Notes under the pieces: model-generated
Seen by the model: only the letters and a program-made list of their open reading frames with translations
Told to the model about the DNA's origin: nothing
The model's database searches: none
Shown: positions 23,921-35,785 of the stretch, piece by piece
Layout of the letters: every line of letters begins with the position of its first letter
Position numbering within the stretch: the first letter of the stretch is position 1
Translations under genes and position numbers: made by a program
Source: Tuwongella immobilis
GTDB lineage: Bacteria > Planctomycetota > Planctomycetia > Gemmatales > Gemmataceae
Direction: 5' to 3'
DNA length: 64,000 nt
Assembly (NCBI RefSeq): GCF_901538355.1
Contig: NZ_LR593887.1
Location: 4,688,920-4,752,919 of the forward strand

Positions 23921-24766
23921 TCATCCGATCCTTTCCGACGTTGGCTCGATGGCCGCTCGAATTCGCAAACAGGTTTCGATCAACGCGGGCAATTCCGCGA
24001 GTGGGATCATGTTCGGACCATCGCTCAATGCAACATCGGGATTGGGGTGCGTTTCCAGGAAGATGCCATCGCAGCCGACCGCCGTGGCCGCCTTGGCCAG
24101 ATACGGCACCATGGCCCGATAGCCCCCCGTGCGATCGCCCAGCCCACCGGGCATCTGCACCGAATGCGTCGCATCAAAAACGACGGGTGCCCCCAATTCC
24201 TGCATCCAGGGAATCGCCCGCATATCGTTGACGAGCATGCCGTAGCCGAAGGTCGTGCCGCGTTCGGTCAGCAGAATTTTGTCGTTGTTCGCCTCGGTCA
24301 TTTTGGCGATGACATTCTTCATATCCCAAGGTGCCATGAATTGTCCTTTTTTGACATTCACGGCCTTCCCGGTGGCGGCGGCGGCAAGCACCAAGTCGGT
24401 CTGCCGGGCCAGAAACGCTGGAATTTGCAGCAGATCCAGCACCTCGGCGGCGGGTTCCACCTGATGGACTTCGTGCAGGTCGCTGGTGACGGCAAAGCCA
24501 AATTGCTGCTTCACCGTTTGCAGCACCTTCAGCCCTTCTTGCAGGCCCGGCCCGCGAAATGACTTCCCGGAGGTGCGATTCGCTTTGTCGAACGACGCCT
24601 TAAAGATCATCGGCACGTTCAGACGGTCGGCGACTCCCCGGAGCGTCTCGGCAATCCGCATCACCAAATCGGCCGACTCGATCACACACGGCCCGGTGAT
24701 CCAAACCAGCGGATGCTGCGGCCCAAACGTCACATTTCCAACGGGAACCACTCGGCGTCCTGCCAT
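23921..24766 (-). CDS. kdsA: 3-deoxy-8-phosphooctulonate synthase (KDO-8-P synthase)
   Basis: 281 residues. It condenses phosphoenolpyruvate with arabinose-5-phosphate, the first committed step of KDO synthesis for lipopolysaccharide. Family signatures along the TIM barrel: [81 protein letters not shown] and [11 protein letters not shown]. The N in NVKKGQF suggests the metal-independent class, since metal-dependent enzymes carry Cys near the N-terminal strand instead; that strand here reads GPCVIE, so the class is uncertain. It supports a Gram-negative-type outer membrane in this organism. Confidence 0.95.
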
Positions 24767-33300: not shown

Positions 33301-33847
33301 TGAAAGCTGGTCGCTGCCGATGTCGATTCTGCTGGTGGTGCCCATGTGCGTGCTGTCGGCGATCATCGGCATTCGCGCAGTCGGGTTGGACATCAACATC
33401 TTCGTGCAGGTGGGGTTGATCGTGCTGATCGGCCTGGCCGCGAAGAATGCGATTCTGATTGTCGAATTTGCGCAACAACAACGCCACGAAGGACTTGGGT
33501 TGAAAGACGCGACTCTGAAGGCGGTGGAGATGCGCTTGCGACCGATCGTCATGACCAGCTTCGCGTTCATCTTGGGCGTGGTGCCGCTGGTGGTGGCCGA
33601 AGGTGCCGGTGCCGAAATGCGGAAAACGCTGGGCATCGCCGTGTTTAGCGGCATGTTGGGGGTGACGATCTTCGGCATCTTCCTGACGCCGGTGTTCTAC
33701 TATTTCATCTCGCGGATCAACGGAGTGCCAGCCAATACGCCGACGACTCCGACGCCGAGTGATGCCGACTCCCCACCGACGCCGCCGATGACTCCACCGA
33801 GCGCGGCGGAGCCGAAACCGATGTCGCCGCCCCACGCCGGGCACTAA
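30335..33847 (+). CDS. RND efflux permease, HAE1 family, with an extra membrane insert
   Basis: 1170 residues from the GTG at 30335 (GAGGAA upstream), which places the classical KFFVDRPIFAWVISIVITLA at the N-terminus. It is a proton-driven trimeric pump. Signatures: PEISPPTISVSASYPGANA, LATAQLPDEVQRQG, TM4 with GIVVDDAIVVLENIER (the proton-relay Asp pair), ALVLVFLVLAAQYESW-type TM8 and GLAAKNAILIVEFA. Between TM6 and TM7 there is an insert of roughly 85 residues with a His-rich stretch (KKHGEHHDPHAGKE) and two predicted helices (WWGIMFLFGLLTLWGLDTIV, AAFVIPGLVIGYLLAARVNW) not found in AcrB. The C-terminus is a Pro/Thr-rich tail. Substrate unknown. Confidence 0.93.
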   Translation: MLAKFFVDRPIFAWVISIVITLAGLAAALTLPIAQYPEISPPTISVSASYPGANARVVADTVAAPIEQQVNGVENMLYMSSQCTNDGNYTLTITFALGTDLNTAQVLVQNRVSLATAQLPDEVQRQGLNIKKKSPNILLVINLFSPDSSRDQLFLSNYATIQMKDEIARIPGVGDVTLFGQQDYSMRAWLNPEKMAADGITTQDVVNAIKEQNVQVAAGQIGQEPVPQGQSLQLTISTLGRLVDVQQFEKIVVKVGGSSPKIATGADVNSSTNVTDSVTRPAVLLKDIARVELTAKNQDQSCTLDGMPSVGLAIFQLPGSNALQVAEAVEAKLQEFRARFPTGIDAAVRYDTTPFITQSVEEVFNTLRDAIILVAIVVLCFLQDWRAMILPMIDVPVALTGTFAVMYLFGFSMNNLTLFGLVLAIGIVVDDAIVVLENIERWIAMGYDARTATIKAMGEVTGPIIAITLVLSCVFIPSTFVSGISGQFYRQFAIVIAASMAISAINAMTMSPARAVSIFKGQEKKHGEHHDPHAGKEALPWWGIMFLFGLLTLWGLDTIVRHRLGLIGGAGESASWNDHLLKAAFVIPGLVIGYLLAARVNWVLGRFFGVFNRAFEFCTRVYGRVIAGLLRISFVVMVLYGGLLFLTYLGLTKTPVGFIPFQDKGYLLVNVQLPDSASVQRTRAVLKQVDELCRGTPGVAHTIGIAGYSIVQGANGSNFASVFVVLEEFEERKSDHEKNGFAILFKLQAQLRREVQDAVVSIFPAPPVDGLGSAGGFKFIVEDRSDSGPDAIQAAANAMIAESTKDPGVSAAFTQYRSAVPQLYAEIDRMKCKQLGVQLSDVFNTLQVFLGGSYVNDFNRFGRTWQVNLQADAKYRVTADYVKRLKVRNDKGDMVLLGALARIEDTTGPVMVQRYNMYPSASINGSLAAGTSTGDGIRVIVTAAEKALPRGMTYEWTELFYLQQLEGSSAIYAFVGAVLLVFLVLAAQYESWSLPMSILLVVPMCVLSAIIGIRAVGLDINIFVQVGLIVLIGLAAKNAILIVEFAQQQRHEGLGLKDATLKAVEMRLRPIVMTSFAFILGVVPLVVAEGAGAEMRKTLGIAVFSGMLGVTIFGIFLTPVFYYFISRINGVPANTPTTPTPSDADSPPTPPMTPPSAAEPKPMSPPHAGH

Positions 33848-33871
33848 TCGATTCTCAGGAACAACCCGTCG

Positions 33872-33912
33872 CCCCGATTCCGACGAATGCCCAACATTTT
33901 TCGGGATCGGGG
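33872..33912 (+). terminator. Hairpin after the RND permease gene
   Basis: CCCCGATTCC (33872) pairs with GGGATCGGGG (33903-33912) with one G-T wobble and a 21-base loop, 24 bases past the permease stop. Only a weak T-rich stretch follows. Likely transcript end before the leuA promoter. Confidence 0.45.
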
Positions 33913-33935
33913 GAATTTCCTCTTGCGGATTTCCA

Positions 33936-33964
33936 TTGTTTCTGGTCCGATGCCTGAGTACGAT
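33936..33964 (+). promoter_or_regulatory. Candidate sigma70 promoter for the leuA leader
   Basis: TTGTTT at 33936-33941, a 17-base spacer, and TACGAT at 33959-33964. Transcription would start near 33971, about 36 bases before the leader peptide start and 186 before leuA, leaving room for leader and attenuator in one transcript. Confidence 0.4.
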
Positions 33965-34006
33965 AGTGATGTCGCTTTTGTTTCACGACCGATTTTCGTG
34001 TGCCCC

Positions 34007-34078
34007 ATGATGTTGTCGCTGCCACTACTGGACCTACTCGACCTCCGACTCGGTGGTCCCGGTCCCGTCATGCGTTGA
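34007..34078 (+). CDS. Leucine-rich leader peptide of leuA (attenuation)
   Basis: A 23-residue frame starting ATGATG: MMLSLPLLDLLDLRLG then GPGPVMR and stop. Eight of its 23 residues are Leu, with codons TTG, CTG, CTA, CTG, CTA, CTC, CTC and CTC packed between residues 3 and 15. It sits immediately before an intrinsic terminator and leuA, exactly the layout of classical leu operon leaders. No strong ribosome binding site precedes it, which is the main weakness. The stop at 34078 is 26 bases before the terminator stem, so a ribosome that finishes translation would cover the region needed for an antiterminator. Confidence 0.7.
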   Translation: MMLSLPLLDLLDLRLGGPGPVMR

Positions 34079-34103
34079 GCGACCCGCACACATGCAAGAC
34101 TGG

Positions 34104-34133
34104 CCCTGGGATCCAAATGGTCTCAGGGTTTTT
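34104..34133 (+). terminator. Intrinsic terminator / attenuator upstream of leuA
   Basis: CCCTGGGA (34104-34111) pairs with TCTCAGGG (34121-34128), including one G-U pair. CC-AAAT-GG extends the stem to a tetraloop past a one-base bulge. TTTTT (34129-34133) follows directly. The 5' arm GGGATC (34108-34113) can alternatively pair with GGTCCC at 34055 or 34061 inside the leader coding region, giving a plausible antiterminator when a ribosome stalls on the Leu codons. Confidence 0.72.
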
Positions 34134-34156
34134 CTATTTCGGGAGATACGGTTCCG

Positions 34157-35785
34157 ATGAGCGTTCCCAGTGATCCCAACCGGCTGATCATTTTCGATAC
34201 CACGCTGCGCGACGGCGAACAAAGCCCCGGCTGCAGCATGAACCTCCAAGAAAAGCTGGAAATGGCTCATGCGCTCAAGGCGCTCGGTGTCGATGTCATC
34301 GAGGCGGGTTTCCCGATTGCCTCACCCGGCGACTTTATCTCCGTGCAAGCGATTGCCCGCGAAGTGCATGGCCCGGTGATCGCGGGTTTGGCCCGCTGCA
34401 ACCCGGCGGATATCGACCGCGCCGGCGAAGCACTCCGCGACGCGGAACGCTCCCGAATTCACGTCTTCTTGGCAACCAGCGCCATCCACCGCGAATTCAA
34501 GCTGAAAATGACCCCCGCGGAAATCGTCACCCGCGCCGTGGAAGGCATCAAACGCGCCAAGCAGTACACCGACGATATCGAATTTTCCCCCGAAGACGCC
34601 GCCCGAACCGAATTGGACTTCCTGGCCGAAGTCTGCGAGCGAGCCGTCGAAGCCGGTGCCACCACGTTGAATATCCCCGACACGGTCGGCTACGCGGTGC
34701 CCGAACACTACGCACGCATCATTCGCCACCTGAAAACGCATGTTCGCGGGGTGGAAAAAGTCGTGCTGAGCGTCCACTGCCACAACGACTTGGGCTTGGC
34801 CGTCGCCAACTCCCTGGCCGCGCTCCAAGAAGGCGCCCGCCAGGTGGAATGTACCATCAACGGCATCGGCGAACGCGCGGGCAATTGTGCCCTGGAAGAA
34901 ATCGTCATGGCCCTGCGCACCCGGCAGGATTACTTCGGCCTGACGACCGGCATCAACACCCGACTGCTGTTCCCCACCAGCCGCAAGCTCACCCACGTCA
35001 CCGGCATGCAGGTGCAGCGCAACAAGGCCATCGTGGGGCAAAACGCCTTCGCACACGAGGCGGGCATCCACCAAGACGGTATGCTCAAGGAACGCAGCAC
35101 CTACGAAATCATGAAGCCGGAAGATGTCGGCATCACCAAGACCGAACTGGTGCTGGGCAAGCATTCCGGTCGCCATGCCTTGCGATCCAAGGTCATCGAA
35201 TTGGGTTACCATCTCGATGATTCGCAATTGCAGCAAGTCTTTGATGCCTTCAAAGGCTTGGCCGACCGCAAGAAGCATATCTACGATGCGGACATTGAAG
35301 CCCTCGTGGAATCGCAATTGCACGCCGGCACCGGCACCGCTCCGCTGTGGACGCTGGAAGCCTTCACCTGCAACGCGGGCACCGGCACCCTGCCCTCTGC
35401 CGCCGTCGCGCTGTGGCACCAAAACGGCAACATCATCCGCGATTCCGCCACCGGCGATGGCCCAGTCGATGCCCTGTTCAAGACCATCGAACGCATCACC
35501 GGCATCGACGTGGAATTGCTCGATTACCGCATCCGCAGCGTCACCGTGGGCGAAGATGCGCAAGGCGAAGCCACCGTGGAAGTCTCCTACCAAGGCCGCA
35601 AACTGTCCGCCCGCGCCGTCAGCACGGACATTATCGAAGCCTCCGCGTTGGCCTTCCTGGAGACGATCAATCGCATTCTGTTACGCAAAGTCAACGACCG
35701 ACTGAAGCCCACCGACGATGTCCCGCAAGAGTTGGTGCCCAACACGGAAACCACCGCCGGCACCACTCCCACGCCAACCGCGTGA
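34157..35785 (+). CDS. leuA: 2-isopropylmalate synthase
   Basis: 542 residues. It condenses acetyl-CoA with 2-oxoisovalerate, the first committed step of leucine synthesis. The HMGL-type TIM barrel (about 10-280) has [20 protein letters not shown] (metal-binding Asp), the [16 protein letters not shown] metal-binding His pair, and [14 protein letters not shown]. The linker [18 protein letters not shown] follows, then the LeuA allosteric dimer domain (about 395-515: [38 protein letters not shown]), the leucine feedback site. GGGAGA precedes the ATG at 34157. The final 25 residues are Pro/Thr-rich. Leucine should control it both allosterically and through the leader/attenuator upstream. Confidence 0.97.

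Follow-up and report, generated by a model that had tools for sequence, protein, structure and literature searches.

The segment directly upstream of leuA in Tuwongella immobilis (positions 34007-34138, plus strand, of the window, the whole 64,000-nucleotide stretch of DNA analysed here) is very probably a leucine-sensing attenuator in which a translating ribosome controls transcription. Computed support comes from a leader peptide, an intrinsic terminator, their conservation, covariation of two alternative helices (2:3 and 3:4), an excess of rare Leu codons and promoter-like sites. From these features we infer leader translation, ribosome stalling, termination and a response to leucine. Poor U-tracts at leuA in the genus Gemmata are a point against an attenuator. 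An earlier note made from the letters alone had already interpreted the segment in this way, and our analysis supports that interpretation.

In the mechanism we propose, RNA polymerase would transcribe the leader while a ribosome behind it translates the Leu-rich peptide. When Leu-tRNA is ample, the ribosome would reach the stop codon and mask or displace strand 2, allowing strands 3 and 4 to pair and end transcription ahead of leuA. When Leu-tRNA is scarce, the ribosome would stall within the Leu run and leave strand 2 free, which could then pair with strand 3 ahead of the synthesis of strand 4, so that leuA would be transcribed.

Leader, terminator and leuA in the window

The genome that carries the window consists of 6,690,754 bases in a single contig. 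Its leuA leader is a plus-strand frame of 23 codons plus TGA (34007-34078, with an alternative start at 34010), which reads ATG (34007) ATG TTG TCG CTG CCA CTA CTG GAC CTA CTC GAC CTC CGA CTC ... CGT TGA (34076-34078). The sequence bears out the earlier description of eight Leu codons in 13 positions: codons 3-15 (34013-34051, plus strand) hold TTG, CTG, CTA, CTG, CTA, CTC, CTC and CTC. Inspection of the sequence ahead of this leader revealed no clear Shine-Dalgarno sequence.

The terminator described after the leader is likewise present, as a stem of 12 pairs (34102-34130) with a T-tract behind it; stem search located it, and folding agrees. Its 5′ arm is strand 3 (34102-34113) and its 3′ arm with the U-tract is strand 4 (34119-34138), both on the plus strand, both located by folding, stem search and model R1 (see below) and both covarying in relatives. 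The gene that follows was correctly named as leuA: the plus-strand frame at 34157-35785 encodes a 2-isopropylmalate synthase of 542 amino acids that passes the cut-offs of TIGR00973 and NF002086. A distance of 26 nt separates the terminator stem from the leuA start codon, and a Shine-Dalgarno-like GGGAGA, read from the sequence at 34141-34146 (plus strand), lies in this interval.

Upstream of the leader we noted a weak plus-strand promoter-like site by reading the sequence (33936-33964), composed of TTGTTT (33936-33941), a 17-nt spacer and TACGAT (33959-33964). It scores below the 8-point level of our promoter comparison and was missed by the consensus promoter scan, which found no sigma-70-like site in 33800-34400. 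Transcription of leuA starting downstream of 34133, which the earlier note had named as evidence that would speak against attenuation, looks unlikely because only 26 nt are available there, the scanned interval lacks a sigma-70-like site and promoter-like sites lie upstream of most of the leaders compared.

Two further candidate strands fall within the leader, both on the plus strand. Strand 2, the putative antiterminator strand (34053-34067, with core GGTCCCGG at 34055-34062), can pair with 34101-34114, and strand 1 (34030-34043), made up of GGACC and GACC inside the Leu run, can pair with strand 2. The GGTCCC copies at 34055 and 34061 on which the earlier proposal relied both exist. The accompanying proposal that a ribosome at the stop codon would cover them holds only in part, because the second copy ends 9 nt before the stop codon and a ribosome of usual footprint size would cover the two copies only partially.

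Conservation across the class Planctomycetia

We assembled 121 leuA loci from the class: 81 from Gemmataceae (81 of the 85 genomes with a LeuA match, partial genes being omitted), three of four from the sister family, and 37 from other families, picked for family spread among the matches listed, which represent at least 19 families. Families f15, f18 and f19 were not sampled, leaving 16 families in the counts. A frame with at least five Leu codons in 12 occurs in 76% of the 121 upstream regions, compared with 2.5% on the reverse strand and 6.2% in shuffles. Such a frame followed by a strict terminator within 65 nt is found at 64 of 121 loci; none of the 121 reverse strands and none of the 968 dinucleotide shuffles has one. 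The pairing of leader and terminator at leuA is not due to chance.

Leader and terminator proved to be conserved in relatives, a check that had been proposed with the original observation. A leader with at least five Leu codons in 12, a hairpin and a T-tract occur together at 86 of 121 loci, spread over 57 of the 72 genera and 13 of the 16 sampled families (Gemmataceae 55/81, sister family 3/3, other families 28/37). With at least four Leu codons in 12, and the hairpin and T-tract within 110 nt, the count is 95 of 121. The leader peptides themselves have little in common outside the Leu run.

These findings bear on the possibility that the hairpin is merely the ordinary terminator of an upstream gene, or a constitutive terminator in the leader, while the Leu-rich frame encodes a genuine small protein or arose by accident. 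A large frame on the same strand does end upstream, at 33847, and the terminator is the dominant structure at equilibrium (see below). However, 57 of 72 genera have leader and terminator together ahead of leuA, neither shuffles nor the reverse strand contain the pair, the alternative helix covaries, and the peptides are alike in little but their Leu run. We consider this explanation highly improbable, and an ordinary terminator of the upstream gene is rejected by its conservation together with leuA.

By the rule used, 14 of the 100 loci with at least five Leu codons in 12 have no hairpin with a T-tract; six of these belong to Gemmata (genus g7), and several of the 14 do show a hairpin, but its U-tract is poor. 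Three of the 14 (G073, G074 and G078) have doubtful leaders, and G073 and G074 keep the hairpin while a clear Leu leader is absent. The leader appears to have been lost in genus g35 (G076-G079), G056 and G057. In the four g35 genomes leuA is present, and a Leu-rich leader with terminator is not seen upstream of it. Among the other families, the pair is missing in G110, G143, G154, G174, G200 and G222.

The poor U-tracts of some Gemmata hairpins speak for the alternative that leader and hairpin alter access to the ribosome site of leuA, or permit reinitiation, with transcription running through. For several phyla a proposal exists that ribosomes reinitiate downstream of short leaders, and planctomycetes are named there among those with leader frames near genes (PMC4833913). 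Yet the upstream 330 nt contain a strict terminator at 80 of 121 loci, the median distance from hairpin end to leuA is 25 nt in Gemmataceae and 93.5 nt in the other families, and the hairpin in the window leaves out the Shine-Dalgarno-like sequence. The reinitiation peak given for Actinobacteria, 10-11 bp, is far shorter than these distances (PMC4833913). Control by translation alone is thus quite improbable, and on the grounds of distance and T-tract we rejected it in favor of transcription attenuation.

Codon choice and upstream sites were compared in 97 of the 100 leaders, G073, G074 and G078 having been removed by hand (G143 was below the level anyway). Relative to the first 95 codons of leuA, the leaders show an excess of rare Leu codons: CTT makes up 0.35 of Leu codons versus 0.12, and CTA 0.12 versus 0.02. 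Promoter-like sites with a score of at least 8 lie upstream of 61% of the 97 leaders, compared with 9% for shuffles and 8% for stretches farther upstream.

Beyond the class, a search set of 24 loci comprised seven that belong to the class, one that was not anchored and 16 others. Two of these 16 anchored leuA loci (G283 and G308) carry a frame with five Leu codons in 12 and some form of terminator. Locus L114, labelled Vicinamibacteria, has a Leu-rich frame and a terminator upstream of leuA and is a possible case outside the phylum, the one besides planctomycetes among 51 named leuA loci scanned from several phyla. In family f4, many genomes carry a second LeuA match, which is the shorter one among the matches listed.

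The two competing helices

We aligned 31 loci from eight families, chosen for having the stop codon within strand 2. The alignment comprises the leader end, a conserved GTC(C/T)TAGG and the terminator, with little other conserved sequence. Both helices covary among these relatives. In the 2:3 helix 85.7% of cells are paired, with double changes in 22 cells versus 7.0 in shuffled alignments and a covariation score of 0.257 versus 0.146, while the last pair is unpaired in 19 of the 31. The corresponding values for the 3:4 helix are 96.2% paired, 50 versus 14.4 double changes and a score of 0.478 versus 0.279. Sliding by one column lowers the covariation of both helices alike. Column 97 covaries with its partners in both helices; Gemmataceae mostly have C-G at 31:97, and most other families have U-A.

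Model R1, built from this alignment with the window excluded, matches the window at 34031-34139 (26.7 bits, E 4.6e-6). The best match of R1 in the genome is the same leuA leader (E 4.8e-4, with 150 of 600 first-look candidates scored).

Pairing energies were compared with those obtained when strands are swapped between genera, using 95 of the 121 loci. The native 2:3 duplex equals or exceeds the median of the swaps at 84 of 95 loci, with 63 in the best quarter and 22 in the best 5%, and averages -20.3 kcal/mol versus -16.4 kcal/mol in swaps. In the window this pairing has -16.2 kcal/mol and ranks at 0.67 among swaps. The antiterminator claimed earlier is therefore borne out in relatives, by covariation (31 loci) and by swaps (84 of 95), but the window's own pairing is no stronger than the swapped controls. 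Protector pairing of strands 1 and 2 is weak as a class-wide feature, at -12.9 kcal/mol versus -11.4 kcal/mol in swaps; of the 94 loci used, 44 fall in the best quarter and 65 in the better half. The window reaches -17.0 kcal/mol with a rank of 0.10. The 2:3 helix overlaps the stop codon at 60 of 95 loci. The window is not among them, and there, as in Gemmata, the main part of the helix lies upstream of the stop.

At equilibrium, folding gives a mean terminator probability of 0.83 with a ribosome on the Leu codons, 0.94 with a ribosome at the stop and 0.89 for free RNA, and a full switch appears at 19 of 95 loci only. In the window the terminator probability drops at a single Leu codon, where it is 0.35. 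As long as strand 4 has yet to be transcribed, upstream pairing of strand 3 has a probability of 0.71 for a ribosome on the Leu codons versus 0.28 for one at the stop; the difference exceeds 0.2 at 81 of 95 loci, and the values for the window are 0.69 and 0.19. Since the terminator wins at equilibrium at most ribosome positions, the switch would have to be kinetic. Attenuation is generally thought to be kinetic.

Leaders at other genes and possible coupling in Gemmataceae

Further matches to R1 led to citramalate synthase (cimA), DAHP synthase and a class I/II aminotransferase. In a recount, an Ile/Val leader with a strict terminator was found at 11 of 21 cimA loci versus 1 of 210 shuffles, an Ala leader with a strict terminator at 8 of 17 aminotransferase loci versus 0 of 170, and a Phe/Trp/Tyr leader with a strict terminator at 7 of 49 loci of the DAHP/KDO8P synthase family versus 0 of 490, counts that are not wholly independent because the first loci came from R1. 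Leaders of other kinds were few (DAHP: Leu 2, Ile/Val 2; cimA: aromatic 2, Leu 1; aminotransferase: Ile/Val 2). An earlier table gave Leu leaders at 66 of 121 leuA loci (aromatic 5, Ser/Thr 1), Ile/Val leaders at 9 of 20 cimA loci, and Ala leaders at 7 of 16 aminotransferase loci (Ile/Val 2, Arg 1, Pro 1). The amino-acid bias of the leader peptide follows the downstream gene.

The whole-family DAHP figure of 7/49 replaces a first count of 4/8, which came from a subfamily chosen after the results had been seen; 49 of 52 loci were used, three at contig edges being omitted. One of the seven leaders (L404) resembles the end of another gene. Aromatic leaders with terminators precede DAHP-family genes at L319, L324, L393, L399, L400 and L405, as exemplified by GWWWSWAF (L405) and SYFWQFFTYF (L393). 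At trpE (22 loci), hisG (21) and ilvB (28) we searched for attenuators and saw some chance frames, but no terminator followed any of them. The per-gene table accordingly reads 0/22 for trpE, 0/12 for hisG and 0/28 for ilvB, hisG being reduced to 12 because another frame is the longest in the remaining loci; a further two trpE and two ilvB loci lay outside the scan.

Among the leaders of genes other than leuA, 19 of 22 have a 2:3 pairing of their own that is better than three quarters of swaps. Among the exceptions is the cimA leader in the genome that carries the window, with a 2:3 rank of 0.67. That genome carries two more such leaders besides that of leuA. One, Ile/Val-rich and with a terminator, stands directly before citramalate synthase (G000:C1, about 4506900-4507100; L333, L002; MSGSQLIRLPIAIIAAQGVRMVVAVSVWTD). 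The other is an Ala-rich frame with a terminator before the aminotransferase gene (L322:366-643, equal to G000:C1:4628865-4629142), which is alike in seven other genera. Given the length of this frame and the abundance of Ala in GC-rich DNA, the case for an Ala leader depends on the comparison with shuffles and on its recurrence across eight genera. The aminotransferase (L322:644-1969) passed no NCBIfam cut-off among the matches listed, and the solved structures closest to it include those of multiple-substrate, aminoadipate and alanine-glyoxylate aminotransferases; the Ala-rich leader hints that the enzyme makes alanine.

The match between peptide and gene also bears on whether a T-box or riboswitch, binding tRNA or a metabolite, controls the terminator while the Leu codons are incidental. 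A terminator in a biosynthetic leader speaks for such an element. However, Rfam 15 covariance models gave no credible match in the window region (one chance-level snoRNA match) or at 16 leuA loci (two chance-level microRNA matches), and no match in the leaders of other genes. Little sequence is conserved beyond the leader end and the terminator, and peptide bias tracks the downstream gene. A ligand-binding leader is exceedingly improbable, and we rejected it because no family matches and the peptide bias follows the gene.

Taken together with the probable ribosome-mediated attenuation at leuA, these leaders make it moderately likely that Planctomycetia possess a leader-peptide attenuation regulon (Leu at leuA, Ile/Val at cimA, Ala at the aminotransferase, aromatic residues at DAHP synthase) and that Gemmataceae couple transcription to translation at the nucleoid. 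No such switch can work unless a ribosome is on the nascent RNA, and therefore conservation of the switches in Gemmataceae, a family that includes both Gemmata and the genome carrying the window, would mean coupling at these loci. Gottshall et al. 2014 is cited as showing that Gemmata obscuriglobus keeps transcription and translation spatially apart (PMC5394234, PMC6212462, PMC5287468, PMC6554331), and the cell plan behind this separation is disputed in one of them (PMC6554331). If the attenuator works, translation would take place on nascent RNA in Gemmataceae, contrary to the proposed segregation, and strict spatial separation could not hold there. The leuA leader is present in Gemmata genomes. 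Its U-tract there is poor, for example ATTTCGTTTC in G011, which is a genuine weakness; in G022, from the same genus, the cimA leader has a good U-tract. A switch that requires a ribosome close behind RNA polymerase offers a genetic test of the dispute at a defined locus in cultured species, and the set of regulated genes suggests functions to test. Transformation has been achieved in the planctomycete Planctopirus limnophila (PMC5394234).

The enterobacterial leu attenuator (leuL; Rfam Leu_leader) has a peptide with a Leu run, mutually exclusive antiterminator and terminator helices, rare Leu codons and a leucine-synthesis gene downstream. The planctomycete element resembles it in all these respects, but has no Rfam match, a different sequence and a different phylum. 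Unlike in enterobacteria, no attenuator was found at the trpE, hisG and ilvB loci scanned.

The Actinobacteria LEU element shares a Leu-rich leader peptide upstream of leuA, according to its published description (PMC1262725). There, Leu codons pair with a Shine-Dalgarno box in a pseudoknot, and mutations do not fit classical attenuation, whereas the present element, compared by that description, has an intrinsic terminator and a competing antiterminator (PMC1262725). The trp and leuS attenuators of Actinobacteria, as presented in the same paper, are alike in combining leader codons with antiterminator and terminator hairpins that share complementary segments, and differ in the genes they precede, which here are leuA, cimA (Ile/Val), the aminotransferase (Ala) and DAHP synthase (aromatic) (PMC1262725). 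A term search of the main text of PMC2965389 returned no mention of planctomycetes. The earlier statement that attenuation is undescribed in planctomycetes holds within the literature searched, where we found no report, and an earlier survey may have predicted it. Further searches yielded no report of an Ala attenuator or a cimA leader among the titles listed; if real, the Ala leader would represent a sensing specificity absent from that literature. The kind of switch is known, and the phylum, the Ala leader and the gene set appear new within the literature searched.

Several minor observations accompany these loci. The cimA leaders at L330, L331, L333, L336 and L342 contain a near-identical short stretch, GCGCAGGGAGTGCG(C), that may form a small hairpin. 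An Rfam match to a c-di-GMP-I-GGC riboswitch, on the minus strand at L324:1953-2062, lies near the DAHP-synthase locus of G042. The window itself carries a gene of the DAHP/KDO8P synthase family (PF00793) at 23984-24736 on the minus strand.
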